From Fibrisoma montanum (GTDB taxonomy: Bacteria > Bacteroidota > Bacteroidia > Cytophagales > Spirosomataceae), in the NCBI RefSeq assembly GCF_003583365.1, contig NZ_QXED01000002.1, forward strand, positions 744,001-808,000: 64,000 nt of DNA, read 5' to 3'. The notes under the pieces were generated by a model, which worked only from the letters and a program-made list of their open reading frames with translations, made no database searches and was not told the origin of the DNA. Made by a program: the position numbers and the translations under genes. The number at the start of each line of letters is the position of its first letter. The stretch's first letter is position 1. This document shows positions 44,351 to 62,621 of this stretch, piece after piece.

Positions 44351-46003
44351 TTATTTCTTTATTAATGGCTTAATTTTCCCCGCTTTGCCGAACGACCGTA
44401 TGCTGTTTACAACTAAAGCCAGGCTAACTGCACACCCTGCATAAGCACCATACATTCCCGGTTTGCCGTAGCTACTGATAGACATGGGTTCAAGAGAACT
44501 ACCGGTTGGGTTGCGGGTCAGGTCGCGCCAGGTGTTGTAATTATTGTTCAATTGGTCAACGCGGGCTTTATAGTTATCGTAGTCTTTCTTGATGGCTGAG
44601 TAAGACAGATATCCCCCTACCAAACCTGCAATACCCCCAACAATCTGTAGCCACCCCGCCCGGCGGTAGCGTGCCTTCCGGGCTTTAGCCTCTGCCGTTA
44701 ATGATTGCGTTAGAGTTGGTGTCGAAGTTTCTTGTTTGTCCGGAACCTTCACAATAGGCGTTGAGGGTCTGGTTTTCTCCTGAGCCACCGCCGCATCTGT
44801 TGTTATTGATGCAGGCTGGTTAGGTATTGGCGTATCAGACTTCAGCTCTGCCTTACTGATCTGAGTTGTTGTGGGAGCGGGTTGTGTTTCGCTGGGATTG
44901 CTGCCACTCAACACGGCTGGTTTAGGTTCGGTGGCGGGCGGTCGGCTGGCGATTGCTGTAGTTTGGGAGGAGGGTAGCGTTAGGCTGGATGTTGGTATTG
45001 ATGATGCCGTAGTACCAACCGGTTGGGTTGTGGCTGCTACTGGTTTTTGAATTACTCGATCAAATCCGTTGTAAGTCAATCCTTTGTAAAAAATAAAGCG
45101 ATTGTTATTTTTTTGAAACTCGATTTTGGTTTGTTCATCTAACTGATCGCCTTTCACCCACACATATATTGGCAGTTTTCCCTGCCGTTTATACCAGCCA
45201 ATCGGAATATCAACTGAACCCGCTTGGACTACCTGCGTCCAATCTCTGTTAAATTTGAGTTTAACTTCAACTCCATCATCAGTTCGCTGGTAGGCAACGT
45301 CGGCTCCATTGATCGACAGGTTTTCTGGAATCATCACTTTAGTAATCTCGGCAGTGGTTGTATTGCCAGGTTTGGGTGATGCAGGATTCTGGGGAATTGA
45401 TTCCATACTTTCGCCGGGCTGGAAAAAGCCAAAGCGGATAATACGTACCTGCCATTTATTATTAATTCGTTCGGCCCGCATCTCAACCACCCGATTCGTA
45501 GGCAGATACGCTTTGTCTGTTTTGGTATTTTTTCCACGAAACGTTGAAGTGAAGTAGACCTTTTTCAGTATAAAATCCTTTTCTTGTCGGGCGGGAGGAA
45601 ACCTGTAGTTAGAAAAGATAATAGTGTTAGGCTGATCGGGTTTGGCGTAAAATAACGATAAATCGGTTAGGTATTTTTCAATCGTTACGTCTTCTGTTTT
45701 ATCTGTCGATGTATGATCGGGGTTAATATCGTCTTCAATAGTAACCAGGTCATTATAGAACACCTGATTTTCCCCTGGCTGATAGCTGTTCGATATAAGA
45801 TAGTTCACATCTCGACCTTCCAGTTCCTTGTCAGTTAACTGATTCATCAGCTGATTCAACAACGTTAATCTCTCCCGCGCGTAATACGTGATATTATCGT
45901 CATCGCGCTTGGTTAACGGTGACGGCGATTGTCCAAATACAGGTGCTTCAACTACTTGTAGGGCGGTAAGTAAAGCTATGTAGAACGTAAAAAGTTTTTT
46001 CAT
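44351..46003 (-). CDS. Exported protein of unknown function with C-terminal membrane segments
   Basis: A 550-residue protein with a signal peptide (about 1-24). Residues 25-330 are a folded region without a family I know (DNITYYARERLTLLNQLMNQL, SNYRFPPARQEKDFILKKVYFTSTFRG, LPIYVWVKGDQLDEQTKIEF). A Pro/Thr/Ser-rich linker of about 110 residues follows. Two hydrophobic helices close the protein (GWLQIVGGIAGLVGGYLSY and YGAYAGCAVSLALVVNSI). The layout suggests a periplasmic domain tethered to a membrane. It lies 26 bases upstream of the T9SS-sorted gene, in one operon. Confidence 0.7.
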   Translation of the reverse strand: MKKLFTFYIALLTALQVVEAPVFGQSPSPLTKRDDDNITYYARERLTLLNQLMNQLTDKELEGRDVNYLISNSYQPGENQVFYNDLVTIEDDINPDHTSTDKTEDVTIEKYLTDLSLFYAKPDQPNTIIFSNYRFPPARQEKDFILKKVYFTSTFRGKNTKTDKAYLPTNRVVEMRAERINNKWQVRIIRFGFFQPGESMESIPQNPASPKPGNTTTAEITKVMIPENLSINGADVAYQRTDDGVEVKLKFNRDWTQVVQAGSVDIPIGWYKRQGKLPIYVWVKGDQLDEQTKIEFQKNNNRFIFYKGLTYNGFDRVIQKPVAATTQPVGTTASSIPTSSLTLPSSQTTAIASRPPATEPKPAVLSGSNPSETQPAPTTTQISKAELKSDTPIPNQPASITTDAAVAQEKTRPSTPIVKVPDKQETSTPTLTQSLTAEAKARKARYRRAGWLQIVGGIAGLVGGYLSYSAIKKDYDNYKARVDQLNNNYNTWRDLTRNPTGSSLEPMSISSYGKPGMYGAYAGCAVSLALVVNSIRSFGKAGKIKPLIKK

Positions 46004-46998: not shown

Positions 46999-48330
46999 TT
47001 AATTTGACATGAACTTTAGTTGAACACGCCGATTCTTGGCTTTATTAGCTTCTGTATCGCTCGGAGCTGCGGGGTAGCGACTACCAAAACCAACTATTTC
47101 GAGTCGGTGGTCATCTATGCCCTGTATCGTTAAAAAACTTAATACAACCCGGGCCCGGTTCTCAGCCAGGGCTCGGTTTAGACGCTCATCCCCTTCGGCG
47201 TCAGTATGCCCGATAATTCTAAGTTTCAATTCGGGACGCTGAATGAGATAGGCTGCTATTTGTAGCAAAACCTGTTTCGCAGAAAGCTGAATCGCGTAAC
47301 TACTTCGTTCAAAGTAGATGAGAGGTAGCGAATCGGTCCTGGTCAAGGGCGGTATGGACGTATGTTCTGTAACCGTAGAAGCACCAGAGGTCGAAGCTGC
47401 TACTAGAGGTTTTGCTACCTTTTCCACATTTAGGCCTCGGCGAAGACTAATCGGTCGTTGTTCTCGAACGTTTCCACGACGGTCAAGAACGACTAGAGTG
47501 TAAACTTGTGACAGGACATTCATGGCTACCAGAACGTCCGGATGCGCTGGGACAGGCACCAGAGCAATTCCTTTACTGCTACCCGGCGTTCGAAGTTCGC
47601 AGCTACCCACTCCGCCGTCGATCTGTACTGACAACAGGACCAGCTCCCGCGTCAGCCGGATCACATGCTGTAACCGACGTCCATTTAATTCTTCAACGTT
47701 GATATTTCCCTTGTATGTCTGGTAGCCGGGAGCCGCTATTTCGACGGCAATAATATCTTTTCGATCGAACTCCATTATTAATTGCCCTGCTGCGTTGGCG
47801 TTGAAACACCTTTTCTGGCCGCTGTTGGTGAAAACGAAACAAGCTTTGGCTGGGAGCGCTTTATTAGTAAAGGCGTCCGTTATCACAAATACGTTTTGTT
47901 GAGGACGGGGGCTGGTCAACCCACTACCCTGTTGCTCTGTATGCGTTTGTTCGCTTTGTAGATAAGGCCGGTCGGTTCCCTCCGGGTCCACTGCAATCAA
48001 TGGAATAATAACAGGGATTGACACTTCTCCCGCTTTGGTTGTGATCTCGTTTAAAGGGAGTTGTTGAGGCCGGTAGCCCTTGCGCTCGATCAATAACATA
48101 GTAGCTTGACAACTTATGTCGATCTGAAACCGGCCTGTTTCGGTCGAACTGCCGAGGTTGGTGCGACCAGTAGAGGTTTTTAGGAAAAACTGGGCAGCTA
48201 AGGGCTGGCGAGTAGCATAGTCTTGTACCACTCCGGTCAATCGCATACAGGGTGCCGCCAACAATGGCCAGCATAGTCCACTGAACAGACCTGTCGTTAG
48301 TAGGACAAACCGATGTGCCAGCCCCGTCAT
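46999..48330 (-). CDS. OmpA-family protein with carboxypeptidase-regulatory-like domains
   Basis: The protein has 443 residues with a signal peptide. Two small beta-sandwich regions resemble carboxypeptidase regulatory domains (GVVQDYATRQPLAAQFFL and VFVITDAFTNKALPAKACFVF). The last 110 residues are an OmpA C-terminal domain: IYFERSSYAI, RIIGHTDAEGDERLNRALAENRARVVLSFL and NRRVQLKF. That domain binds peptidoglycan in known members. It probably anchors the products of this operon to the cell wall. It is seven bases downstream of the preceding gene. Confidence 0.9.
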   Translation of the reverse strand: MTGLAHRFVLLTTGLFSGLCWPLLAAPCMRLTGVVQDYATRQPLAAQFFLKTSTGRTNLGSSTETGRFQIDISCQATMLLIERKGYRPQQLPLNEITTKAGEVSIPVIIPLIAVDPEGTDRPYLQSEQTHTEQQGSGLTSPRPQQNVFVITDAFTNKALPAKACFVFTNSGQKRCFNANAAGQLIMEFDRKDIIAVEIAAPGYQTYKGNINVEELNGRRLQHVIRLTRELVLLSVQIDGGVGSCELRTPGSSKGIALVPVPAHPDVLVAMNVLSQVYTLVVLDRRGNVREQRPISLRRGLNVEKVAKPLVAASTSGASTVTEHTSIPPLTRTDSLPLIYFERSSYAIQLSAKQVLLQIAAYLIQRPELKLRIIGHTDAEGDERLNRALAENRARVVLSFLTIQGIDDHRLEIVGFGSRYPAAPSDTEANKAKNRRVQLKFMSN

Positions 48331-48337
48331 AAACTAT

Positions 48338-49588
48338 TTAGTTCTGTTCGGTCTCTACACTTACGTTACCCAGCAACACCCGCCACTTGTCGAGTTCCTG
48401 ACCGTCAATCACCTTTTGGTATGATTCTAATTTCACCCGAACATTTTTGGCTGTACTGTCGCTGTAGACGGGTTTACCATTGCTATCATAACCAATAAAG
48501 GTTTGCTGGCCGGCAATCGTCCCGTAGTAGTTTCCATCGGCTTCCTGACTTAAATCTTTCACGAACTTAGTCTGTACCCATTCAATTCTAGTAGACTTAT
48601 AGGGAAGTAATTTCAAACGGGTCAGATATTGACCTATGGACAGCGTTCGCGAACCAGGACGACTGACCGATGTAACTTCAACTGTGGCGCCTGCCATAAA
48701 AAGCTTCGTAGCCTGTGCGATAGCCCGGTCTTTATCATCATTACTGATATTTTTGTCAGTGATTATATTGATATAAGCCACGAAATCCTCCACCCGAGCC
48801 AGTGATTTCTGCCGATATCCTTCTTTTTCTTCTTCGGTCAACGTCAGTCGTGGCCTAGCAAACATTGCATGGGGGGGGGGAGTAACGACGGGTTTTGAGG
48901 GAGTTAAGTCGGTTGGCTGAGCAGCGACTGGTTCAACAACCACTGGTTTTGATGGAGTTGTTGCTGTTAAGTCTGCTTGCGCGGTCGTTACATTCGTTAC
49001 CGAGAACGGAGGAGCAGGTGTTGTACTGGTAACCGGTTTTCCGCCATTGAACACCGTTGGCCGGATTTCGGCCAGTATTGGGGCTACATCACTTGCAAGG
49101 GCAATAATTGAATGTCTTCCGTCTTTATAAAGTATTGCTAACAATTCATCTTTATTTATTGAAGCAGAATTACCGGACACAGCTTTGTAATTAACTAATT
49201 CATCGCTGTCATAGGTGATTTCGCCAGGAATTACTGTAATTGGGATCGCTTTGATTAAATAGTCTTTGCTGTCGTTGCGTAAAGGGGCTTCCAGAAATGT
49301 CCGTAATTGCTGTTTGGCCTGCTCCAGATCAGTTGCTAACTCCGACATGAGCAGGAAGTGTCCAGTTTTAGTGAAAGCCATCAAGATTCTGCTCCGACTG
49401 AAGCTATGCTCTTTTGGGTTTCCTTCTACACTGAATGTAACTTTATCCCCAGTAAGGTTAGTAATTCGAGCGTTGAGTAATTGGTCACCGTTCGAAAAGT
49501 AAATTGCATCCTGCGCCGAAGCTGTATTAAAATAAACAGTTTGGCTGCCTATGCACACAAACCAAAAAAAAGCTAGGTATACTTTCAT
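48338..49588 (-). CDS. Exported protein of unknown function with Pro-rich linker and poly-C tract
   Basis: A 416-residue protein with a signal peptide ending near ASAQ. An N-terminal domain (DAIYFSNGDQLLNARITNLTGDKVTFSV) resembles small beta domains that begin many Bacteroidota periplasmic proteins. A Pro/Thr/Val linker has two near copies of TPSKPVV. The C-terminal domain is not recognised. A run of ten C in the coding strand encodes the PPP after the linker and is in frame in this copy; a slip of one base would remove the C-terminal half. Confidence 0.7.
   Translation of the reverse strand: MKVYLAFFWFVCIGSQTVYFNTASAQDAIYFSNGDQLLNARITNLTGDKVTFSVEGNPKEHSFSRSRILMAFTKTGHFLLMSELATDLEQAKQQLRTFLEAPLRNDSKDYLIKAIPITVIPGEITYDSDELVNYKAVSGNSASINKDELLAILYKDGRHSIIALASDVAPILAEIRPTVFNGGKPVTSTTPAPPFSVTNVTTAQADLTATTPSKPVVVEPVAAQPTDLTPSKPVVTPPPHAMFARPRLTLTEEEKEGYRQKSLARVEDFVAYINIITDKNISNDDKDRAIAQATKLFMAGATVEVTSVSRPGSRTLSIGQYLTRLKLLPYKSTRIEWVQTKFVKDLSQEADGNYYGTIAGQQTFIGYDSNGKPVYSDSTAKNVRVKLESYQKVIDGQELDKWRVLLGNVSVETEQN
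48871..48880. repeat. G10 homopolymer tract (possible phase-variation site)
   Basis: Ten G in a row on the plus strand, inside the coding region of an exported protein. Tracts of this length are prone to slipped-strand errors and are the longest single-base G/C run seen in the window. Confidence 0.85.
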
Positions 49589-49608: not shown

Positions 49609-50355
49609 TTAGCGCATCGCGCGAACTAGTTGCTTAGTTGCATCAGTCATAAATAACTCCAATTCGTCTTGCTCAACAGCTTCGTAAGGGCCAATTTTGG
49701 TTCGTGGCACCGACGGGTGAAGTCGACCTCCCTTATAGATGTAAGCACAACCATCCGTACAGGGGGTATAGTGTAGTTTATAGGTACCGACTACCTCGTT
49801 GGTTTTGACGTATATTAGCTTGAACTCCACAGAGGCTCCTAACCGCCGGAAGTTATTCGGTAGTTGAATCTCCCGCTCTTTTCCTTTCCGCGTAGCCTCG
49901 TAACACCGGTTGGTATTGTAATGAACTTCTCGGTCAATGTTGATCCATTCTAGAATCAGATCTGTGTTTGTAAGACCATTTACTTTTGTATAGTCAACGC
50001 TAGCTGCTTTATCTAATACTTCATTAAATAGACCTCGATCGCGTACACTGAACCCTTCTCGGAAGAGTTGTTTTTCAATAGCGTTGTAAAGCAGGTTATC
50101 ATCCTGCTTATTGGCTGCTTTGTTCAGTTCTCGGGGGCGCTTCTTGTTCTGACTATCCGTACTCTGGTCATTGGTAACTCCTTTACGAGTCTCAGGAACA
50201 CGTAATACGATTTTAGGCGACCTATTTACCAGCATCATTTGGGTCAACGATTCGGAAGAGTGCATTTCGGTCGGCAATTGTTTATAGCGAACCAGCACTT
50301 TCTTAGTACAGTTGGTCAGCAACAGTCCTAAAAACAGGTAAATAATTGGACGCAT
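49609..50355 (-). CDS. Lipoprotein of unknown function
   Basis: A 248-residue lipoprotein (LLLTNCTKK). The middle (DDNLLYNAIEKQLFREGFSVRDRGLFNEVLD) reads like the family of outer-membrane assembly lipoproteins that mix helices with a beta sheet, followed by LILEWINIDREVHYNTN. No named family can be given. It begins 44 bases after the TPR-like gene and is in the same operon. Confidence 0.68.
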   Translation of the reverse strand: MRPIIYLFLGLLLTNCTKKVLVRYKQLPTEMHSSESLTQMMLVNRSPKIVLRVPETRKGVTNDQSTDSQNKKRPRELNKAANKQDDNLLYNAIEKQLFREGFSVRDRGLFNEVLDKAASVDYTKVNGLTNTDLILEWINIDREVHYNTNRCYEATRKGKEREIQLPNNFRRLGASVEFKLIYVKTNEVVGTYKLHYTPCTDGCAYIYKGGRLHPSVPRTKIGPYEAVEQDELELFMTDATKQLVRAMR

Positions 50356-50399: not shown

Positions 50400-51026
50400 T
50401 TAATATTGCTTATCGTTAGTCAGTCTAATTGACTTACTTTTATCTTTCGATCGTGTTCCTTCTTTTGATGTGCTAGGAATACTACTCGTTATAGTCTTTG
50501 GTGGGGGCGGGGCCAGCGTTGGTTTGGGCCTGACGGACGAGCGATTAGGTGAAGTTGGAGAGGGTATCGGGCGGTTTACAACCCCCTCGCTATTAGCAAT
50601 GTTTGTTTCAACCTGCTTTAATGCTTTTACCTTTCGCAATAGTGCCTTATAATCGGTCACATTTGCATCCTCGCGTTGCTGTAAAGAAATTAATTCATTT
50701 TGAATACGGTCCCGATTGGGCTTGCTGACGATGGTCGTCAGTACATGACGAATCTCCTTCGAATGTGATTCAATCACCAGCATCTGCTGCTGGATTAATT
50801 CATCCACATGATTTATGGCCTGTTGAACCGTAGTACGGTTGGTAGCTGATGCATAGGACAGGGCTTTACCATAGGCGTCGAAAGCTTTGCGGTAATTACC
50901 TTGTTGTTCATACCGCTGTCCCTGGTCAAAGTAAGTATGGAATGTCTGTTCCGTTTGTCCATAGACCGGCAAAGCAGATAGAATCAAACAGCCAAGTAGC
51001 CATTTCGTTCGTGAAAACGTAGGCAT
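50400..51026 (-). CDS. Exported TPR-like protein with coiled coil
   Basis: A 208-residue protein with a signal peptide ending near VYGQ. One TPR-like pair (FDQGQRYEQQGNYRKAFDAYGKALSYA) is followed by a helical coiled-coil stretch and a Pro/Ser/Lys-rich tail. It is the first gene of the minus-strand operon that runs to 41253. The 291 bases upstream are AT-rich and hold no gene; the operon promoter must lie there. Confidence 0.7.
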   Translation of the reverse strand: MPTFSRTKWLLGCLILSALPVYGQTEQTFHTYFDQGQRYEQQGNYRKAFDAYGKALSYASATNRTTVQQAINHVDELIQQQMLVIESHSKEIRHVLTTIVSKPNRDRIQNELISLQQREDANVTDYKALLRKVKALKQVETNIANSEGVVNRPIPSPTSPNRSSVRPKPTLAPPPPKTITSSIPSTSKEGTRSKDKSKSIRLTNDKQY

Positions 51027-51317: not shown

Positions 51318-52688
51318 TTATTCTTTACAACGCCTGAGCAAATTCTGAACTCTTGCGACTGTGTCTCCTAAGTTGTCTATTGGGATAGCTAATTTACTGG
51401 AAGCAATGTTTCTAAATTGAGGATCATTGATGTAATCATTAGTTTCATCGAGCAATTCGGCTGTTTCACCACAGGTTTTGGTAAACCATGCTACGTCTTC
51501 AGGTCCAAGGTTAATTACATTTAGTTTCTGGGTAGCCAGACGAAAAAATTCCTGCCGATCAGTTGAATAATATTTACGAAATTCTTCAGCAGCCGCATCA
51601 GGCTCCATTGTGGACACTCGTCCACGAAAATTTTTTAAATAGCTCAAATGGCTTTGCAAGGCTTTGAAAGCCACCCGGTTGATAGCGCAAATGCCTGTTA
51701 AGTCTCCTGTAGATTCAGGGCTGGACACGGGTTCTGTGACAACAGGGCTAACAGATGGTTCGAGTACGGACGCGCTAGGGGAATCAACACGCGACAAACC
51801 AGTACTTACAGGTGAGGCAGTGGCTACAGCAGCTCCAGTTGATCCGGCAACAGTTTCAGTCGCAAAGATTTGAAAGACAGGCTCCTGTACTGCTCCTTGT
51901 TCACGGGCATATTCGATGGTTGATTGAGTTGAAGCGCTTAGCAAAGCCCTCCATTCAGCTGGTTGTTGACGAAATGATTTAGAAGTAAACTGCTTGAACT
52001 GATCGTAAAACGATGTAAAGAACCATCCCCCATCTTCACTACTATTCGACTTTTGCCCTCGCTTACAGGTATGCAACAAAATGGAGGCTCGGCTCTGTAA
52101 GAATAAGTTCTTCAGTTGCTCAGCCTGTATTGCTGATACATTCATGATACGTGTATTGTGCCCTTTTGCCTTCGAACGGTCATTAATTGCGCTATTGCAG
52201 GATTCACCGAAGGCCAGTGTCAAGCGGTTGCCTTTACGTCTTAATTGTTCAAATACAGCTTTTAGGTTGCGAGAATTAGTTGGGCCAGGACTCTGGCCCT
52301 GGGTTTTAAACAGGAGCATAGGCTCCTCCGTCTCCGAATTGTTCCAACCATGACCCATAAAATAGAAAAAAACAACATCGTTGGCCTCAGGCTTAAAATT
52401 GCTGAGGACCTGATCGCACCGGCTGGCCAAAAAATCTTTACCTTTAAAAACCATCATCTGATTTTTTAAACCAGTGGCCTGACACACATCGTTAGCCATT
52501 TCGGTTAGAAATGAAATATTCATGAGATTAGGAGCCGACAAGCCTGGGTCATCTGTATCTGCAAAAATTAACAGATGAAAGGTTTGGGCCGATGTTTTCT
52601 GTATCAATCCAAATACACTAAGATGTAGTCCTAGCATTACACTGAAAAATGTAATCAAAGAGGGCCTAATTGGTTGATTCGGTTTCAC
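51318..52688 (-). CDS. Exported caspase-like protease (C14 family) with intact His-Cys dyad
   Basis: The protein has 456 residues with a signal peptide in the first 35. The caspase-fold core has VVFFYFMGHGW with His113 and LTLAFGESCNS with Cys164, the catalytic pair of the C14/metacaspase clan. After residue 275 comes a Val/Ser/Pro-rich linker and a helical C-terminal domain (FKALQSHLSYLKNFRG) of unknown role. It is translated from GTG, overlapping the upstream gene by 23 bases; ATG at 52637 would also give a signal peptide. It is the last of three tandem caspase-fold genes. Confidence 0.85.
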   Translation of the reverse strand: MKPNQPIRPSLITFFSVMLGLHLSVFGLIQKTSAQTFHLLIFADTDDPGLSAPNLMNISFLTEMANDVCQATGLKNQMMVFKGKDFLASRCDQVLSNFKPEANDVVFFYFMGHGWNNSETEEPMLLFKTQGQSPGPTNSRNLKAVFEQLRRKGNRLTLAFGESCNSAINDRSKAKGHNTRIMNVSAIQAEQLKNLFLQSRASILLHTCKRGQKSNSSEDGGWFFTSFYDQFKQFTSKSFRQQPAEWRALLSASTQSTIEYAREQGAVQEPVFQIFATETVAGSTGAAVATASPVSTGLSRVDSPSASVLEPSVSPVVTEPVSSPESTGDLTGICAINRVAFKALQSHLSYLKNFRGRVSTMEPDAAAEEFRKYYSTDRQEFFRLATQKLNVINLGPEDVAWFTKTCGETAELLDETNDYINDPQFRNIASSKLAIPIDNLGDTVARVQNLLRRCKE

Positions 52689-53526
52689 AACAGGTGATGG
52701 TTTGACGGCTGATTAAAGGCGTTTGGCGATTTTTTGTCTTTGATTGCGTTATCTGAACTATGTTTTCTTGAACATACTTCCAGGGCGATTGACCGTAAGA
52801 CTGCGATTTAATCAAATTTGAAACGGCGTGGGTAAAGGCCATTAACCAAACTGAACCTTGCTTTAGTGAACTGTAGGCGCGTTGTCCCCGGTTGGCAGAT
52901 GTCATAATAATAATTTGCCGTAGATCTTTTGCTTTAAATAAACTCTCATAAGTAGCTACGATGGTCATGTCGGGCAAATCGGTCAACGCTGGATTAGTTA
53001 CGGTCGGTCTGACAATCGTTGATACAAATTGTTGAGTGCTAACTGTTCGCTCATCATTCTCAAAAAGGGATGAAGAATGACTAGGTTTATTATTACAATC
53101 AGCAGTTACCAGCAAGGTCCGAACGGGTTTTGCCCGAAACCGAGCCAATAAGTCCCGAACCGGTAAGTCTCCTCCATTTAGTTGAAGCGTTGGCCAAGCC
53201 TTTGGACCATCACAATACCCCTTGCCAGCATAATAAAACCAAATCATATCAATCTCTGATGACCGGGGTGAGAAGGTTTCAATCGTTTTGCGTATTACTT
53301 GGGGCGTAAAATTCGCGCTGTCGCCAAAGTCGTACCAGTGAAGTGTATAGTTTCCGTATTTTGCTATTTCTGTAGTAAACGCGCGCAGTCGTTCAGCATC
53401 TAATATCTTGTTGGGACGTTTTGCTGCGTTCGTCTCTATAACTGAAAAGACATAAAGATTCTGGCCATGCGCCATTTCCATCTGGAACCATAAGAAAAAG
53501 ATTAATATACCTATTTTAGCCAGCAT
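52666..53526 (-). CDS. Exported caspase-fold protein, catalytic His replaced by Lys
   Basis: The 286-residue protein has a signal peptide ending near AHGQ. It is homologous by layout to the flanking caspase-like genes: MIWFYYAGKGYC carries Lys102 where the catalytic His belongs, while LLVTADCNN keeps Cys144. A second conserved region, IIIMTSANRGQRAYSS, matches the equivalent IASASVGQRAM in the next paralogue. Without the His it should not be a normal cysteine protease, so it may be a pseudoenzyme that binds peptide or a partner. Confidence 0.78.
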   Translation of the reverse strand: MLAKIGILIFFLWFQMEMAHGQNLYVFSVIETNAAKRPNKILDAERLRAFTTEIAKYGNYTLHWYDFGDSANFTPQVIRKTIETFSPRSSEIDMIWFYYAGKGYCDGPKAWPTLQLNGGDLPVRDLLARFRAKPVRTLLVTADCNNKPSHSSSLFENDERTVSTQQFVSTIVRPTVTNPALTDLPDMTIVATYESLFKAKDLRQIIIMTSANRGQRAYSSLKQGSVWLMAFTHAVSNLIKSQSYGQSPWKYVQENIVQITQSKTKNRQTPLISRQTITCCETESTN

Positions 53527-53533
53527 ACAGAGA

Positions 53534-54328
53534 TTAATTTTGAGAGGTATCAGAAGCTACGTCTCCTTCGTCGTCATCAACGTCAGCAGGGCAGTCTACA
53601 GCAAATCGAGGCTTTTGCATACCGTTCGATTGGGTTATGACTTTATCGATTAAACTACTTTTAACAGTGTTTGCTAAACGATTTAGCCCCCATCTGGGAT
53701 CAGGTTCGGCCATCTGCTCTTTCATTGCAGCTAAAAAAGCTCCTAAAAAAACCGAGTTGCCGTTTTTATCACGCATAGCTCGCTGTCCAACTGAAGCAGA
53801 AGCAATCTTGATGAACATTTTTTTACATTCAGCATTTCCAAGAAAAAATTTCTGGCTGCTTTCACGTAGAGCCGGGGGGTGCGGACGAGGTATCAGCCGC
53901 GCCACATAGACCGGTTCGGGCTGATTATCGCAATCAGCGATTACTAAGGTTAGGTGTGCTTTGCGGGGACGTACTATTTCCATCACATCACGGCTAGGCG
54001 TTTCGTCACCGCTTTTTAATTTCATAATAGGCCACACCCGATCGCTGGCAGCCTCCCCTCGGCCTGAAAAGTAGAAAACCACTATATCCTTTCCAGCAAG
54101 AATAGGCGTTGCTCGTAACTTTGCTAAAAGTTCTCGACGACTGTAAGCCGTTTGAGTTGTAACAGGGTAGTCTAAATATGGGCCCACATAACGCCAAAAA
54201 TTTTCCATCTCTGTTCGATCTTTGACCCCACGGCTGTCTTCAGGGTCAGCCAGGAAAAACAAGTGAATTTTCTGGGAATAACCATGAAGTGAAATCAGTA
54301 GAAATAAGCAAGTTAATAGTCGTTTCAT
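53534..54328 (-). CDS. Exported caspase-fold protein, catalytic His replaced by Arg
   Basis: A 264-residue protein with a signal peptide ending near GYSQ. It shares the caspase-like core of its neighbours, with VVFYFSGRGEA (Arg90 in the His position) and LTLVIADCDN (Cys133 kept). SASVGQRAM is conserved. The C-terminal tail is acidic (CPADVDDDEGD). It begins 22 bases after the M48 protease gene and is seven bases from the next caspase-like gene. It is probably a pseudoenzyme. Confidence 0.78.
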   Translation of the reverse strand: MKRLLTCLFLLISLHGYSQKIHLFFLADPEDSRGVKDRTEMENFWRYVGPYLDYPVTTQTAYSRRELLAKLRATPILAGKDIVVFYFSGRGEAASDRVWPIMKLKSGDETPSRDVMEIVRPRKAHLTLVIADCDNQPEPVYVARLIPRPHPPALRESSQKFFLGNAECKKMFIKIASASVGQRAMRDKNGNSVFLGAFLAAMKEQMAEPDPRWGLNRLANTVKSSLIDKVITQSNGMQKPRFAVDCPADVDDDEGDVASDTSQN

Positions 54329-54350: not shown

Positions 54351-56108
54351 CTACTTTTTCTTCTTTGCAGGAGTACCTGTCGGTTTCAGTTTACGAGCTT
54401 CGGGCTTCTTCGTGGCTGCTGGCTTAAGCCCCTCTCCAGGTTGTTCGGCCACTTCACTATCGTCTGTGGCTGGTAACCCCTTAACCAATCGCCTTAAACG
54501 CTTTTGAATGGATTTATATTCAGTTTCGCCCTTAGTAAGTTTATCTAAATCTGCATCCTGATAATTTTTAATAATTAAAGCATTGAGCGATTTAAACCGC
54601 TTGCCAGCGGATGGATGAGACGCGTAAATTGAGGAAATGGCATTGTTGCTTAAGGCAGCGGCAGCCAATGCTGTCACTTGCTGAGTTGTAGGGTTTACAC
54701 CTTGTTCGGATAAAGTGGCAATTGTTGCTGCTTGACTTAGCATTCGCTCACCGAATGTTTTGGTTGGCACATCCGGAGTACGGTGGAACAGCTTTTCCCA
54801 CAGTTTCGGTGCCTCCCGTGGATCATATCCAGCTTCATAAATGTAATTTAAACCAATACGATCAGCCTGATTCTCCAATCCTCGGCTGTAACTGCTTGAT
54901 AAGGCCGCTCCACCAAAAGCTGATACCAGATTAGCCAGGTCTGCTGATTCCATGCCATAAGCCGCTACCATAGCCGTTGAGAAAACGGCTTTTCCAATGG
55001 CAATTCCCTGGCTTTTTTCATACTCTTGGCGGCTATGTCGATACGTTACATGAGCAATTTCATGTCCCAAAACGGCAGCTAATTGAGCTTCATTATCAAT
55101 TTCATTCAATAATTGAGTATGAACGAAGACAGAACCATCAGGGTAAGCACACGCATTAAACGTAGTGTCAATAACAACGAAGAAATTAAAGTTTACATAA
55201 GCAGGATGATCTTTAGGCAATTTCTTAATATGATCAGGGACTAGCTTTCGTCCCACGCGAGATACGTATGCGTTAATCGTTTCGTCCTTCAATAAATTGA
55301 ATTTAGCGTTGCCAAACGACACCTCTGTTCCATCCAGCGACAGCTTCTTGGTATTCCGCAACGTAGTCAACAGCTTCCGATCGGTCTCAGTGAATTCATC
55401 GGGAACAACGGTTCCTGATTCAACCAGAAGTATTCCATCGGTTTGGCGTTGGCCTCGGAGTTTAAGTTCCATGCCTTTCTCCATGTCCTTAAAGCTGCTG
55501 AAAAAACGACCTTTGTAGCCTTTTTCGCCAACTAATTTAACTCCTGACTTGAGACGTACTGCCTCTCCGTCGACGGTCGCAATCTCTCCATCCAATTGTT
55601 CATAGGTGCCACTAACCGAACCTGATCCTTTCAAGTCCGTCAGGATGGTAATATCCTGCATGACAAATTTTTTGCTGTACCGATACTCGTAAAAAGCAAT
55701 TTCAATTTCCAGACCTGCTTTGAGTAAGTGCTTTAATTGCTGATAATGAGCTTTATCAATTGGAGCAGGGACCTGATCCTTAAAGGGCTTGTTACTAGAA
55801 AGAGCCTTCTGTTTGCGCTCTTCATACTTCTCGCGATCACGTTCAAACTTTTGGCGTTTACTTTCGTACTGCCGCCGGTCAGCCTTATCCATAAATACCA
55901 GAACACTATCCGGGTAATCGATAAACGAGTAGTAATCCCGATAGTCGTCCTCAATGTTTACTCTGATTTTTGCGTAGGGTGGTTTGAAGTCAACCACGTA
56001 ACCCATCTTGTTTGAGTGAAGAATGGGGACTTCTGTTTGGGCTGATGCAGTCATCAATGAGCCTAATACGGCTAAGACTGCCAGAAGATAGCAGGATAGG
56101 TATCTCAT
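54351..56108 (-). CDS. M48 family zinc metalloprotease
   Basis: The protein has about 585 residues with a signal peptide (MRYLSCYLLAVLAVL...ASAQ). The N-terminal 220 residues are an unfamiliar beta-rich and charged region. The M48 catalytic part has VLGHEIAHVTYRH (HExxH at about 349-353), with ENQADRIG as the third-ligand region. The C-terminal tail is Lys/Pro-rich. M48 enzymes such as BepA act on outer-membrane proteins in the periplasm. ATG at 56108 is used since it starts the signal peptide. It heads the operon with the caspase-like genes and is divergent from the kinase. Confidence 0.9.
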   Translation of the reverse strand: MRYLSCYLLAVLAVLGSLMTASAQTEVPILHSNKMGYVVDFKPPYAKIRVNIEDDYRDYYSFIDYPDSVLVFMDKADRRQYESKRQKFERDREKYEERKQKALSSNKPFKDQVPAPIDKAHYQQLKHLLKAGLEIEIAFYEYRYSKKFVMQDITILTDLKGSGSVSGTYEQLDGEIATVDGEAVRLKSGVKLVGEKGYKGRFFSSFKDMEKGMELKLRGQRQTDGILLVESGTVVPDEFTETDRKLLTTLRNTKKLSLDGTEVSFGNAKFNLLKDETINAYVSRVGRKLVPDHIKKLPKDHPAYVNFNFFVVIDTTFNACAYPDGSVFVHTQLLNEIDNEAQLAAVLGHEIAHVTYRHSRQEYEKSQGIAIGKAVFSTAMVAAYGMESADLANLVSAFGGAALSSSYSRGLENQADRIGLNYIYEAGYDPREAPKLWEKLFHRTPDVPTKTFGERMLSQAATIATLSEQGVNPTTQQVTALAAAALSNNAISSIYASHPSAGKRFKSLNALIIKNYQDADLDKLTKGETEYKSIQKRLRRLVKGLPATDDSEVAEQPGEGLKPAATKKPEARKLKPTGTPAKKKK

Positions 56109-56350
56109 AAGTTTGGATGGATAGATAGACTTTATAACCTTCCGCAAAGAAAGTCTCTGTAAATTAAAGTGATAAAAGTTGGGAATGCTACTCAACTTCT
56201 TATAAATTTCCCAAAAATCTTGTATTTTTTACCGGGTTATATTTACAACTATCCACTCATGCAACTACTGTTTACTACATTCACCGCACAGGTGCGATGG
56301 CTACTTGCCATTTACTCGGTCTATAGCTCATTCTCATGCTTCCATGAGCT
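56109..56350. promoter_or_regulatory. Divergent promoter region between M48 protease and kinase genes
   Basis: An AT-rich gap of 242 bases. TATATTTA at 56238-56245 is a partial match to TAnnTTTG for the plus-strand kinase. A 32-codon frame from ATG 56256 ends in an ATGA overlap with the kinase start and might be a leader peptide. No regulator site is recognised. Confidence 0.45.
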
Positions 56351-58081
56351 ATGAACTACACCGATTTTCGGAAGCGCTACCAGTGGAACGCTAAAATCGA
56401 TAAGTTAGGAGAAGGCGGATTTGGCAAAGTCTATCGTGCGCTCGATACTGTACGCAACCGTCAGGTTGTGCTGAAAATCGCTGATGTGCCGACTGATCAC
56501 AAGTTCTCCCTACAGCGCGAGGTCGAACTGAACCGTGACCTAACGCCCCACCCTAACATTGCCCAATACCGCAACTGCTACCGGCTGGAAGACGACCACG
56601 GCGACGAGCGCGACTACGCCACGATGGACTATTTCCCCGATGGAAGCCTGACAAACGTTATGGCCTGCCCTATCGATCCAGACGATTTACACGACATTGT
56701 GGAAGGGATGCTTCGGGGACTTGTACATCTTGAGCGGGAACAGGTCATTCACCGTGATTTCAAGCCGGGAAATGTCTTGATGGCTCGTGATGACCGGGGC
56801 CGTTGGCAACCCAAGATTGCTGACTTTGGGCTGAGCCGATTTACAGATATGGATACAACAGTCTCCAATTCGTCAATCGGTATTTCGTATGATTATGCCG
56901 CACCTGAGCAATTTCAGCCGGGCTCAGTGAATCGGCAGGCCGACCTGTGGGCATTAGGCGTGATAGTGTATCGGCTTTGTGCAGGTAAACTACCTTTTGC
57001 CGTGTCAGCGGACCTTACCGGCGAAAGCCGCCGATTGGAACTGATTCGGTTGATTAATAAAGCAGAGCTGCCTGCAGACACTAGTCTAATTGCCGAGCCT
57101 TATCAGACGATTATTCGTCGATGTTTGGTAAAGGAGTTAGGTGGACGGGTGAAGTCGTCGGAGGACTTATTAATCTTGATGCACAACATTCCCATTGTAG
57201 ATAAAGATGAAGAAGTTTTTTCTCAAGTACATACGATATCAAATGGATTAGAATTACATGTTACCAATGATAAAGGCATTACTTACAAAAAAGAGATTAA
57301 TACTATTAAATTTAAAGAGATTGATACTAATTCTAAACACTTGGAAGAGAATCCAAAAATTATAAATAGTAAATTTCCTACATCCTTAGTTGCTATTATA
57401 GTTCCTATGATATTTATAGTTTTGTTAATTTTTATTCTTATCGATCAAGCTTACAAACCTAATCGTAAGAAGAATGTAATTGCTAGAACAGATGATACTA
57501 ATTCGACCTTTGTAGTTTGGAGGGACAACCCTAGATATAGCAAAGCTAGATTTATATATTATTATAATGAATCTCTGTCTGTCGACTACGATGATGTAAC
57601 ACTCTTATTGGGTTTGAAAGATTCAAATGGTAAGTGGTTGACCCCCAGAATATATAAAAAAATAGGAGAATTTAATGAATTTGGTATAGCCGAAGTTGAT
57701 ACTGACAAGGGGATTGAAAATTACGTAAGTATTCATGGGGCTCGCTTATTAAATGTAGAACGTGATAAGCCAATAGGATTATGCACAGGTATAGATATTA
57801 ATGGTAGCAAGAAATACTTTATAAGGGGTTTTGCTGAAAGCAGGCTAATTGACGAAATTAAACCTGTTGACTCTGAAGGTCTTAGGCCAGTTAGAGCAGG
57901 GAAGCTCTGGGGGTACGTTGATCTGAGTGGGTATCTAGTGTTGCCCATCGTATTTGATTTAGCTGGACCATTAGATGGTAATGGATATGCGTTCGTAAAA
58001 TATAAGGGCAATAACTACCACATAGACCGACGGGGGCATGATAAAAAAGGAAATACCATTGTAGATGTAGAGAACCTTTAA
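56351..58081 (+). CDS. Transmembrane Ser/Thr protein kinase with periplasmic WG-like sensor
   Basis: A 576-residue receptor kinase. The kinase domain (about 10-280) has the Gly loop GEGGFGKV (20-27), Lys42, catalytic HRDFKPGNV (134-142) and DFG (158-160), all intact. One membrane helix lies at about 345-366. The C-terminal part, predicted outside the cytoplasm, has a WG-repeat-like segment (LWGYVDLSGYLVLPIVFDLAGPL). Base use changes sharply near 57200: the kinase part is GC-rich like clpV, the rest very AT-rich. It is 14 bases upstream of clpV, so it probably controls the secretion machine, as PpkA-type kinases do in other systems. Confidence 0.88.
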   Translation: MNYTDFRKRYQWNAKIDKLGEGGFGKVYRALDTVRNRQVVLKIADVPTDHKFSLQREVELNRDLTPHPNIAQYRNCYRLEDDHGDERDYATMDYFPDGSLTNVMACPIDPDDLHDIVEGMLRGLVHLEREQVIHRDFKPGNVLMARDDRGRWQPKIADFGLSRFTDMDTTVSNSSIGISYDYAAPEQFQPGSVNRQADLWALGVIVYRLCAGKLPFAVSADLTGESRRLELIRLINKAELPADTSLIAEPYQTIIRRCLVKELGGRVKSSEDLLILMHNIPIVDKDEEVFSQVHTISNGLELHVTNDKGITYKKEINTIKFKEIDTNSKHLEENPKIINSKFPTSLVAIIVPMIFIVLLIFILIDQAYKPNRKKNVIARTDDTNSTFVVWRDNPRYSKARFIYYYNESLSVDYDDVTLLLGLKDSNGKWLTPRIYKKIGEFNEFGIAEVDTDKGIENYVSIHGARLLNVERDKPIGLCTGIDINGSKKYFIRGFAESRLIDEIKPVDSEGLRPVRAGKLWGYVDLSGYLVLPIVFDLAGPLDGNGYAFVKYKGNNYHIDRRGHDKKGNTIVDVENL

Positions 58082-58095
58082 ACATACACAACACC

Positions 58096-60705
58096 ATGAC
58101 CCTATCCGAAACCTCCAAACGTGCTATTCAAATTGCGCAGGCCGTAGCTAAAGAGTACCAACACGCGCAGTTTGCACCTGCCCACCTTACGTTGGGCTTA
58201 CTCCATAACGATGTAACGCTGGCCTCCTGGTTGATGGCTATTGGCAAAGACGTGTATTACCTGCGCGACTGGGCCGAAATCCGGCTTGAAGATGTGCCGC
58301 GTTCCGGACGTGTTCCCGAAAACCCGCCCGCCGACGCGAAGGCACAGGCTGCCGTGCAGATGGCCGAACTCATCGCTCTGCAACTCTCATCTACTGCCGT
58401 CGAACCTATTCACCTGCTGGCGGCCCTGCTTAAACCCGGTATTGGGTTCACCGCCGATCAGTTGAAGTCGCTACCGCTGACCCAGAAGGAACTCCTTGAT
58501 TCAGCGGTCAACGAGCAGTCGGTGATGGATGCTGTGATGCCTGGCAAACAAGACGGTAACGGCGCAGCCAATGGGCAGGCACCAACAGGTGGGCCCGGCG
58601 ATGGGCAAAAAGCCGCGCTTTATAAATTCTGCACTGACAAAACGGCTGCCGCCCGAGAAGGTAAACTTGATCCAATTATCGGTCGTGACCGCGAACTGCG
58701 ACTCATGCTCGAAATCCTGGGTCGACGTACCAAGCCTAACGTTATGCTGGTGGGCGAACCAGGCGTAGGCAAAACGGCGCTGATTGAAGGTTTTGCGCAA
58801 GCCATTATAGCTGGAAAAGTGCCTGCCAACCTTCAGGACGCTAACTTGTTCGAATTGGATTTGGGGGCATTGGTGGCTGGAGCCGCCTACAAAGGCGAGG
58901 TTGAAGACCGCATAAAGAGTATCATCCGCGAAATAAAGGCATTTGAGAAAGCGATTCTTTTTATTGACGAAGTACACGTCCTGCTCAACCCAAACGGTTC
59001 GGTCGGAACGGGCGTGTCGCAATTGCTTAAACCTGAGTTAGCACGAGGTGAGTTGACCGTGATTGGAGCAACGACCAATGACGAGTTTCGGCAATACATT
59101 GAAAAAGACGAAGCTTTCAGCCGGCGATTCGAGCGACTTATCATTCCTGAGCCCGATGTCGTAACCGCGACGCGCATGGTGGCAAATTTGCTTCCTTTGT
59201 TTGAAAAACATCATGGCCTTAAAACTGAGCCGGGTGTGGCAGAAGAAGCGGTTCGACTGGCAAGTCGCTACGTGAAAGATCGCCGATTGCCCGATGCGGC
59301 CGTTGACCTGCTCGACCGCACGATGGCCGCTATCCGCACAACCGGAGAAACAGCCCCCGCTGAGTTGGATAACCTTGCAACTCAACTCAACATGTTGCCT
59401 GAACAACTGGCTGAACAGGATACAACCGGGAAACTGGCTGAATACCGCTGGATGCTCCGGCAGTTTCAAGACCGGATCAGCCCTATTCTTCGGCAGCAAA
59501 TAGAAGACAAGACACCACCGGAAACCATTGAAGAGCCAACAGAACTTCATACTTATTTGACGGATCGAATTGAGCAGCTTCGCCCGTTAGCCGATGCCAA
59601 GCAAGAGGAAGTGACCCGGCAGGACGTAGCGGCCATGATCTCAGCCAAAACAGGAATTCCACTTGGCAAACTGCAATCGAGCGAACGGGAAAAGTTGACT
59701 AAAATGGCCGATGTACTGCGGAAGCGGGTGGTTGGTCAGGAGCAAGCTATCACGGCTTTAGCTGCATCGGTACAAAGTACGCGGGCCGGTTTATCGGATG
59801 GTCGCAAACCAGCAGGTGCATTCTTTCTGCTCGGTCCGACCGGTACTGGTAAAACTGAACTGGCAAAAGCCCTGGCTGATTTTCTGTTTAATGACGAATC
59901 GTTCTTAATTAGGTTCGATATGTCAGAATTCAAGGAGGAACATTCAGCATCGTTGCTACTAGGAGCTCCTCCGGGTTACGTCGGTCATGAACAAGGTGGG
60001 GTACTAGTCAATAAAATTAGGGAGAAGCCTTACTCGGTGGTGCTATTCGACGAGATCGAAAAAGCGCATCCATCCGTGTTTGATATTTTCCTGCAGATTC
60101 TGGACGAAGCCAAACTCCGCGATAAACTCGACAAAGAAGGTGATTTTTCAAATGCAATCGTACTGTTTACCTCCAATATTGGAGCGCAACATATCATTCG
60201 CTCGTTTGGAGAGGGCAAGGTGCCGTCGTCAAACGATCTAACAGAGATTATGGCCCGGCATTTCCGGCCCGAATTTCTGGCTCGTATCAATGAACAGGGC
60301 GGCATCATCCCTTTCGCACCCATTACTACGCCCAACGCCGTTCAGATTTTTGGCATTCACCTTCGAGGTCTGGAAGAGCAATTAGCCAAGCAGGGTATTA
60401 CACTCGTACTGTCCGAAGCAGCCCGCGAGCATCTGGCCCTGAGTGGTTTCACGCCCGAATACGGTGCCCGGCCCCTCAAAGGAGTGATTCGTAGTCAACT
60501 TCGGTTGCCCATTTCCCGCATGATCATAGCCGGTGAATTAACTAAAGGCAGCACCCTGACCGTCGATGCCAGCACTGAGAACATCTTAATCTGGAACATA
60601 AATGACGAAGCCCCGACAGGAGCTTTTGTGGCAACATCAACTGAATTTAAACCACCCGCAAACGCAGCACCCGTGTCGGAAGCCGATCCAATACAAACTT
60701 CTTAA
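58096..60705 (+). CDS. tssH: T6SS sheath-recycling ATPase ClpV/TssH
   Basis: An 869-residue AAA+ ATPase. It has an N-terminal Clp repeat domain (1-145), Walker A GEPGVGKT (220-227) and Walker B near D291-E292 in the first ring, and Walker A GPTGTGKT (580-587) and Walker B D652-E653 in the second ring, then a D2-small domain. ClpB has the same layout, but the gene sits with tssB and tssC and the middle coiled-coil domain is short, as in ClpV. It disassembles the contracted sheath in the cytoplasm. The kinase gene is just upstream. Confidence 0.88.
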   Translation: MTLSETSKRAIQIAQAVAKEYQHAQFAPAHLTLGLLHNDVTLASWLMAIGKDVYYLRDWAEIRLEDVPRSGRVPENPPADAKAQAAVQMAELIALQLSSTAVEPIHLLAALLKPGIGFTADQLKSLPLTQKELLDSAVNEQSVMDAVMPGKQDGNGAANGQAPTGGPGDGQKAALYKFCTDKTAAAREGKLDPIIGRDRELRLMLEILGRRTKPNVMLVGEPGVGKTALIEGFAQAIIAGKVPANLQDANLFELDLGALVAGAAYKGEVEDRIKSIIREIKAFEKAILFIDEVHVLLNPNGSVGTGVSQLLKPELARGELTVIGATTNDEFRQYIEKDEAFSRRFERLIIPEPDVVTATRMVANLLPLFEKHHGLKTEPGVAEEAVRLASRYVKDRRLPDAAVDLLDRTMAAIRTTGETAPAELDNLATQLNMLPEQLAEQDTTGKLAEYRWMLRQFQDRISPILRQQIEDKTPPETIEEPTELHTYLTDRIEQLRPLADAKQEEVTRQDVAAMISAKTGIPLGKLQSSEREKLTKMADVLRKRVVGQEQAITALAASVQSTRAGLSDGRKPAGAFFLLGPTGTGKTELAKALADFLFNDESFLIRFDMSEFKEEHSASLLLGAPPGYVGHEQGGVLVNKIREKPYSVVLFDEIEKAHPSVFDIFLQILDEAKLRDKLDKEGDFSNAIVLFTSNIGAQHIIRSFGEGKVPSSNDLTEIMARHFRPEFLARINEQGGIIPFAPITTPNAVQIFGIHLRGLEEQLAKQGITLVLSEAAREHLALSGFTPEYGARPLKGVIRSQLRLPISRMIIAGELTKGSTLTVDASTENILIWNINDEAPTGAFVATSTEFKPPANAAPVSEADPIQTS

Positions 60706-62168: not shown

Positions 62169-62621
62169 ATGAACCCTACTCTCAATATGCCTGGTGCATG
62201 GGCTGCCGTTCGCGACGTCCCGCCCAGCCTTTCGCCCGTTAGTCTCAATAAGACGCTTTACGTAGCCAAGCTTTCCGACGAATTCAGCATGACACCCGAA
62301 GCCATTCCCGGTCTCGAATCGGTGGAGGATGTTATGGAACATTTTAAGCCAGAGGTGGGCGTTACGCTTGAAGATGAGCAGGGGGGAAGCAGCTACGAAA
62401 CGTTCCAGTTTCGACAAATGGGTGATTTCTCACGCGAAGGATTGGTGGAGCAAAGCAAACTCATGCGCGATCTGAACCGTAAGATCCTCGATTTGCAGAA
62501 AATAGACATGCAGCTTCGCTCAAACAAACTGCTGCAAAATGCCCTTCTGAACGCGGAGGCTAGGCTGGCTATGCTGGAAATGATTCAGCAGATGCTCGAT
62601 GAAATTGAGCAGGCTAGCTAG
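62169..62621 (+). CDS. tssB: T6SS contractile sheath small subunit TssB
   Basis: A 150-residue cytoplasmic protein. LNKTLYVAKLSDEF, the middle VEDVMEHFKPEVGVTL and the C-terminal helical region (MRDLNRKILDLQKIDMQLRSNKLLQNALLNAEARLAMLEMI) match Bacteroidota TssB. With TssC it forms the contractile sheath. ClpV acts on the TssB-TssC sheath in known systems. The gene is 54 bases upstream of tssC and 173 bases after the unknown gene; that gap is AT-rich upstream of the start and may hold a promoter. Confidence 0.9.
   Translation: MNPTLNMPGAWAAVRDVPPSLSPVSLNKTLYVAKLSDEFSMTPEAIPGLESVEDVMEHFKPEVGVTLEDEQGGSSYETFQFRQMGDFSREGLVEQSKLMRDLNRKILDLQKIDMQLRSNKLLQNALLNAEARLAMLEMIQQMLDEIEQAS

Follow-up and report, generated by a model that had tools for sequence, protein, structure and literature searches.

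An exported caspase and two predicted pseudocaspases encoded with an M48 protease beside a Bacteroidota-type T6SS in Fibrisoma montanum

Introduction

Bacterial caspases have mostly been treated as cytoplasmic death or defence proteases. The genome of Fibrisoma montanum carries three tandem caspase-fold genes with features of another kind: their products have export signals, two of the three appear to be catalytically dead, and the live caspase is encoded in the same operon, which is tied to a secretion machine. What would such an array do, and why would dead caspases that are old and conserved be kept beside a live one? We analysed a 64,000-nucleotide stretch of contig NZ_QXED01000002.1 (positions 744,001 to 808,000; hereafter the window, numbered from its first letter) and compared it with related genomes. 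A preliminary description, made from the letters of the DNA, had proposed a periplasmic or surface proteolytic switch composed of one active caspase and two pseudoenzymes that lost only the catalytic histidine.

The array and its operon

The first gene of the operon, on the minus strand, encodes an exported M48 metalloprotease (54351..56195; PF01435, E 2.9e-28) with an intact HEIAH motif, which probably begins in fact at Met30 of the open reading frame; the M48 neighbor named in the preliminary description is thus confirmed. Directly downstream on the same strand are casp3 (53534..54328; PF00656, E 4.5e-7), casp2 (52666..53526; E 1.2e-6), and casp1 (51318..52688; E 2.4e-7), giving the order M48-casp3-casp2-casp1. 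The packing is operon-like: 22 bases separate M48 from casp3 and 7 separate casp3 from casp2, and casp2 and casp1 overlap by 23 bases. A scan for promoters and terminators returned sites no more numerous than in shuffled sequence. The three tandem caspase genes are real, being minus-strand open reading frames that each score above the Pfam cut-off of 21.4 bits for PF00656 (31.1, 28.8, and 30.2 bits for casp1, casp2, and casp3, respectively). Judged by eye, the N-termini of all three caspases, as had been described, and of the M48 protease resemble Sec/type I signal peptides. Such signals had also been taken as an unusual trait; however, most relatives in Spirosomataceae seem to carry them (N-termini inspected).

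Catalytic residues and fold

The core motifs FYFMGHGW, FYYAGKGY, and FYFSGRGE were read correctly in the preliminary description and correspond to His113 in casp1, Lys102 in casp2, and Arg90 in casp3. The same description held that the strand bearing the catalytic cysteine is kept in all three proteins, and on this point our results differ. In three separate alignments (A2, A7, and A8), the column of casp1 Cys164 holds Asn145 in casp2 and Asp134 in casp3, and the cysteines that these two proteins do retain (Cys144 and Cys133) lie one residue ahead of the catalytic position. No gap interrupts the alignment of the strand before this column or of the Asn after it (LTLAFGESCN in casp1, LTLVIADCDN in casp3, and TLLVTADCNN in casp2). 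In relatives that have the histidine, the commonest motif is GDCCN, in which the first Cys is non-catalytic and the second is catalytic; the cysteine of casp2 and casp3 corresponds to the first, and the second is replaced. Because their cysteine sits one column early, casp2 and casp3 have lost both dyad residues and are, by alignment, double-loss pseudocaspases. The Arg-Asp or Lys-Asp replacement seen in casp3 and its orthologs may form a stabilizing pair at the dead site.

In casp1, by contrast with its two neighbors, the His/Cys dyad is intact (His113, codon 52352-52350; Cys164, codon 52199-52197); the protein also has a C-terminal region at about 330-456. The dyad is invariant in seven aligned M48-linked sequences and is also present in the casp1 orthologs of a Spirosoma metagenome-assembled genome (MAG; G039) and of Dyadobacter. 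As the only member of the array with an intact dyad, casp1 is probably the single active protease, as had been thought from the letters.

Both dyad-less proteins are predicted to retain the caspase fold. AlphaFold2 models built from 28-sequence alignments reached pLDDT 86 and pTM 0.84 for casp2 and pLDDT 87 and pTM 0.84 for casp3. The best PDB matches of the casp2 model are caspases (VIA-align Z 19.1, rmsd 2.9 over 194 residues), with the FLIP-L/caspase-8 pair (PDB 3h11) among its fold matches, and that of the casp3 model is the MALT1 paracaspase (Z 17.0, rmsd 3.8 over 183 residues); identity to solved structures is low, about 9-16%. The fold evidence comes from these predicted models, since no caspase turned up when solved structures were searched by sequence with the casp3 profile, and a wide-alignment profile gave weak metacaspase matches only. 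Structure prediction had been proposed as a check on the two variants, and it pointed to the caspase fold for both and to no other.

Pseudocaspases in related genomes

How common such proteins are was assessed in 133 related genes from the same family and order, with near-identical copies removed. The His/Cys dyad is kept in 103 of these genes, one has His/Ser, none has the Cys without the His, and 29 have lost both residues; dyad loss in genes lacking the histidine is therefore always double (29/29). The sole His/Ser case is a casp1-type protein (L046:1-936), in which the His is kept and the catalytic Cys is changed to Ser (GEASN).

Across this wider family the residue that replaces the His is L, F, Y, P, Q, T, or R. 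The replacements at the two dyad positions tend to be coupled: among double-loss genes, R or K at the His position is found chiefly with D, N, Y, or G at the Cys position (one R pairs with R), and L, P, or Q is accompanied by R (one L has S instead); F goes with R or S, Y with S, and T with A. Some of these proteins are larger: L088, L101, and L102 encode exported proteins of 500 and 900 amino acids with an N-terminal pseudocaspase domain of the Arg/Tyr or Arg/Asp type, and in L088 and L101 they stand in tandem.

A quick tree placed the double-loss genes in two clades, one of 22 genes (SH-aLRT 92) and one of 7 genes (SH-aLRT 90) that holds casp2, casp3, and two His-less proteins of another genome, G027. 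The pseudocaspase clades are old. Since casp2 and casp3 share one of them, a single ancestral loss of the dyad is likelier than two separate losses. The earlier claim that the two proteins lost the His by different changes thus stands as regards the residues now present (K102 and R90), whereas the separate origin that it implied is less likely.

Orthologs of casp3 are found in 3 of 222 genomes of the family, F. montanum itself, the Spirosoma MAG (locus L112), and Dyadobacter jiangsuensis DSM 29057 (L113), and in all three loci M48 is upstream, casp1 is downstream, and TssH is divergent. As the orthologs keep the same neighbors in three genera, this neighborhood is beyond chance. The dyad positions of casp3 orthologs are R/D in the Spirosoma MAG and K/D in D. 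jiangsuensis; the casp2 ortholog of the Spirosoma MAG has R/G, and casp2 is absent from Dyadobacter. In G027 (L075), an M48-pseudocaspase-pseudocaspase-casp1 array without a nearby T6SS has L and T at the His position; this genome yielded no TssC match.

We considered whether His, Lys, and Arg form a recurring signature, and rejected it: the order is H/K/R in Fibrisoma, H/R/R in the Spirosoma MAG, H/-/K in Dyadobacter, and H/L/T in G027. What recurs is an active caspase with one or two pseudocaspases. The residue at the His position is basic in all five T6SS-linked pseudocaspases (R, R, and K in casp3; K and R in casp2), whereas it is mixed in the wider family and L or T in G027.

The adjoining T6SS

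A T6SS locus adjoins the array; it was missed in the preliminary description, and most of it lies beyond the end of the window. Divergent from the M48-caspase operon, on the plus strand, are genes for a Ser/Thr protein kinase with WG repeats (56351..58081; PF00069, E 3.4e-41), a TssH/ClpV-type AAA+ ATPase that is the first T6SS gene (58096..60705; TIGR03345, E 1.6e-190, below the cut-off of that model), and the TssB sheath protein (62169..62621; weak PF05591 match). The cluster, mostly past the window end, comprises TssB, TssC, three TssD proteins, VgrG, TssN, PAAR, and an Rhs protein, then TssE, TssF, TssG, a TssO-like protein, TssK, kinases, FHA proteins, PP2C, and a fourth caspase (His/Cys). 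Markers of the Bacteroidota type are clear (TssC, PF17541, E 2.4e-162; TssD, PF17642, E 4.1e-35; TssN, PF17555, E 5.9e-39), and family matches are present for TssE, F, G, K, and VgrG, several of them under the NCBIfam cut-off. PAAR and TssO were assigned from sequence and position: the TssO-like protein is a 274-residue single-helix protein without a Pfam match, named by position and form. From these matches we classify the cluster as T6SS subtype iii (T6SSiii). With T6SSiii and its TssNQOPR membrane complex (PMC10781749) it shares TssB, C, D, E, F, G, H, K, and N, along with a TssO-like protein; TssP, TssQ, and TssR were not recognized here. In D. jiangsuensis, the normal TssB and TssC genes are adjoined by a gene for a second, diverged TssC-like protein of 457 amino acids with a TssB-like start (L113:2047-3420).

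The fourth caspase belongs to a type of about 260-300 residues with His/Cys and a signal-peptide-like N-terminus. Genes of this type adjoin a PP2C phosphatase gene in 21 of 21 places (L008:10448-13108, which is C20:827947-830607, and 20 others, picked by eye from coordinate lists and compared by coordinates only), most of them away from T6SS.

Behind casp1, the Fibrisoma strand continues past a 291-base gap. The genes there, all on the minus strand, encode a TPR-containing exported protein (50400..51026; weak TPR matches), a lipoprotein with lipobox LTNC (49609..50355; CsgG/LpoB-like by eye, no Pfam match), the exported protein p416 (48338..49588), an OmpA-domain protein, a peptidoglycan anchor (46999..48330; PF00691, E 3.8e-20), and the exported protein p550 (44351..46003). 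Relatives of p416 are T6SS-linked across the family: 27 of 49 have TssC no more than 25.5 kb away, where about 0.5 would be expected, so this part of the strand is linked to T6SS. Together p416 and OmpA occur in other T6SS loci (for example L177, L203, L205, L207, and L212-L218), and p550, too, accompanies them in other T6SS loci. The p416/OmpA/p550 set recurs in or beside the T6SS loci of many family genomes, often between TssH and TssB (L212-L218). It is possible that these three proteins are counterparts of the unrecognized TssP/Q/R envelope proteins. In Dyadobacter, the strand reads M48-casp3-casp1-PP2C-kinase-p416-p550.

For caspases in general, 9 PF00656 loci lie within 25 kb of TssC in the 44 TssC-bearing genomes, against 0.8 expected (Poisson P 2e-7, which is too small, as the genomes are related); 36 of the 44 have no caspase locus near TssC. 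In Spirosoma and Larkinella, M48-casp1 pairs occur with no T6SS nearby, and M48-caspase islands that lack one are frequent. Large exported-protease islands were seen in Larkinella, Spirosoma, and relatives (L118, L119, L120, L122, L079, L084, and L104); they hold several His/Cys caspases, M48, a DUF4384 protein, a CsgG/LpoB-like lipoprotein, and small NTF2-like proteins, and that of L079 also has a papain-like protein.

Comparison with known systems

The profile matches place all three proteins in family C14/PF00656 (caspases, metacaspases, and paracaspases), and the casp2 and casp3 models are nearest to animal caspases and MALT1; unlike the enzymes of this family, casp2 and casp3 are without both catalytic residues. 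They fit the definition of pseudo-orthocaspases, with a p20 fold and substituted dyad residues (the inactivity being predicted), and they share with that group its evolutionary retention (Klemencic et al. 2019, PMC6426788). Pseudo-orthocaspases have been reported mainly from Alphaproteobacteria and Cyanobacteria, with Tyr-Ser, Tyr-Asn, Phe-Ser, and other replacements, and pseudo-variants made up 10 of 1,078 Bacteroidetes sequences in that survey (PMC6426788). Our counts suggest that Cytophagales are richer in pseudocaspases, although our sample was drawn by similarity and does not give a rate. Unlike those of the survey, the Cytophagales pseudocaspases are apparently exported, carry Arg-Asp, Lys-Asp, Lys-Asn, and Leu/Phe-Arg replacements, and share an operon with M48 and an active caspase, next to a T6SS in three cases.

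Our search of open-licence papers found nothing relevant on exported or T6SS-linked caspases; in PMC10781749, searching for terms gave "protease" once and neither OmpA nor "caspase". Pseudo-orthocaspases are already known; the exported, T6SS-linked array of an active caspase and pseudocaspases is, as far as this search goes, new.

Possible roles of the array

Our preferred reading, to which we give a probability of about 0.4, is that M48, casp3, casp2, and casp1 form an exported set of proteases and pseudoproteases that works with the adjacent divergent T6SS in the envelope. All four proteins would act in the periplasm, where casp2 and casp3 would bind casp1 or its substrates and so set the timing and targets of its action, and where casp1 and M48 would cut or clear envelope proteins at sites at which the T6SS is assembled or fired, or at which incoming effectors arrive. 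A parallel for the proposed binding is FLIP-L, which has a caspase fold but no catalytic activity and modulates live caspase-8 by forming a heterodimer with it; the likeness is an analogy in how the proteins would work and claims no membership. In favor of this reading, 3/3 casp3 orthologs adjoin TssH together with M48 and casp1, the strand continues into T6SS-linked genes, caspase loci lie near TssC more often than expected, casp3 is as well conserved as M48 and TssH, both pseudocaspase models are caspase folds, and dyad loss is double and old. Against it, the tight link comes from three genomes, most TssC-bearing genomes (36 of 44) have no caspase locus nearby, and similar arrays and pairs exist without a T6SS.

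Those T6SS-free cases favor the main rival account, which we consider somewhat less probable, namely that the genes are a self-contained envelope protease or quality-control operon of a kind common in the family (exported caspases, M48, CsgG/LpoB-like lipoproteins, and small NTF2-like proteins), which merely adjoins and travels with a T6SS in three genomes. Comparable T6SS-free islands, seen in G027, Spirosoma, Larkinella, and others, speak for it; they hold M48, several His/Cys caspases, and p416-like, DUF4384, and CsgG/LpoB-like proteins. Against it are the position of every casp3 ortholog at TssH, a strand that runs into the T6SS-linked p416, OmpA, and p550 genes, and a Dyadobacter strand that goes into PP2C and kinase genes known from T6SS loci.

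Were the array to serve the T6SS as we propose, one could go further and regard a periplasmic caspase under dedicated pseudocaspases as an integral component, regulatory or protective, of certain Bacteroidota T6SS, with Cytophagales running unrecognized exported caspase/pseudocaspase modules; this extension we consider less likely than not. If true, it would offer a two- or three-gene system for testing what bacterial pseudocaspases are for, and would indicate a missing envelope factor of Bacteroidota T6SS.

It is unlikely that these proteins are themselves secreted or injected by the T6SS as effectors, or act as self-killing caspases. The array does lie beside the VgrG, Hcp, and PAAR genes and the Rhs protein of the same cluster, but the proteins have Sec-type N-termini in place of the features of effectors, nothing ties them to PAAR, VgrG, or an immunity gene, and two of the three are predicted to be catalytically dead. 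The proteolytic switch of the preliminary description, in which pseudoenzymes lacking only the His would keep a usable catalytic Cys, has become very improbable: an arrangement of active and inactive members does exist, but the register of the alignment puts the cysteine one residue early and led us to reject a retained catalytic Cys in casp2 and casp3. A proteolytic switch of some other form may exist. More improbable still than one with a usable Cys is a cytoplasmic anti-phage function, since the marginal caspase matches that PADLOC returned (E 0.002) are weak, came without a known defence system or its partner genes, and concern proteins with export signals.

Finally, casp2 and casp3 are hardly likely to be decaying duplicates. 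Both have lost the two dyad residues, and casp2 is only 54% identical between Fibrisoma and the Spirosoma MAG, against 78% for casp3, 76% for M48, 73% for TssH, and 64% for casp1. Synonymous sites are saturated between Fibrisoma and the orthologs compared, yet casp3 keeps this 78% identity and 62% to its ortholog in D. jiangsuensis, the frames are open, and the pseudocaspase clades are of long standing. As casp3 is conserved as much as M48 and TssH, it does not appear to be decaying, and decay is unlikely for both proteins, least clearly for casp2; that the variants are retained, as had been supposed from the letters, agrees with this conservation and with the caspase folds of both models.
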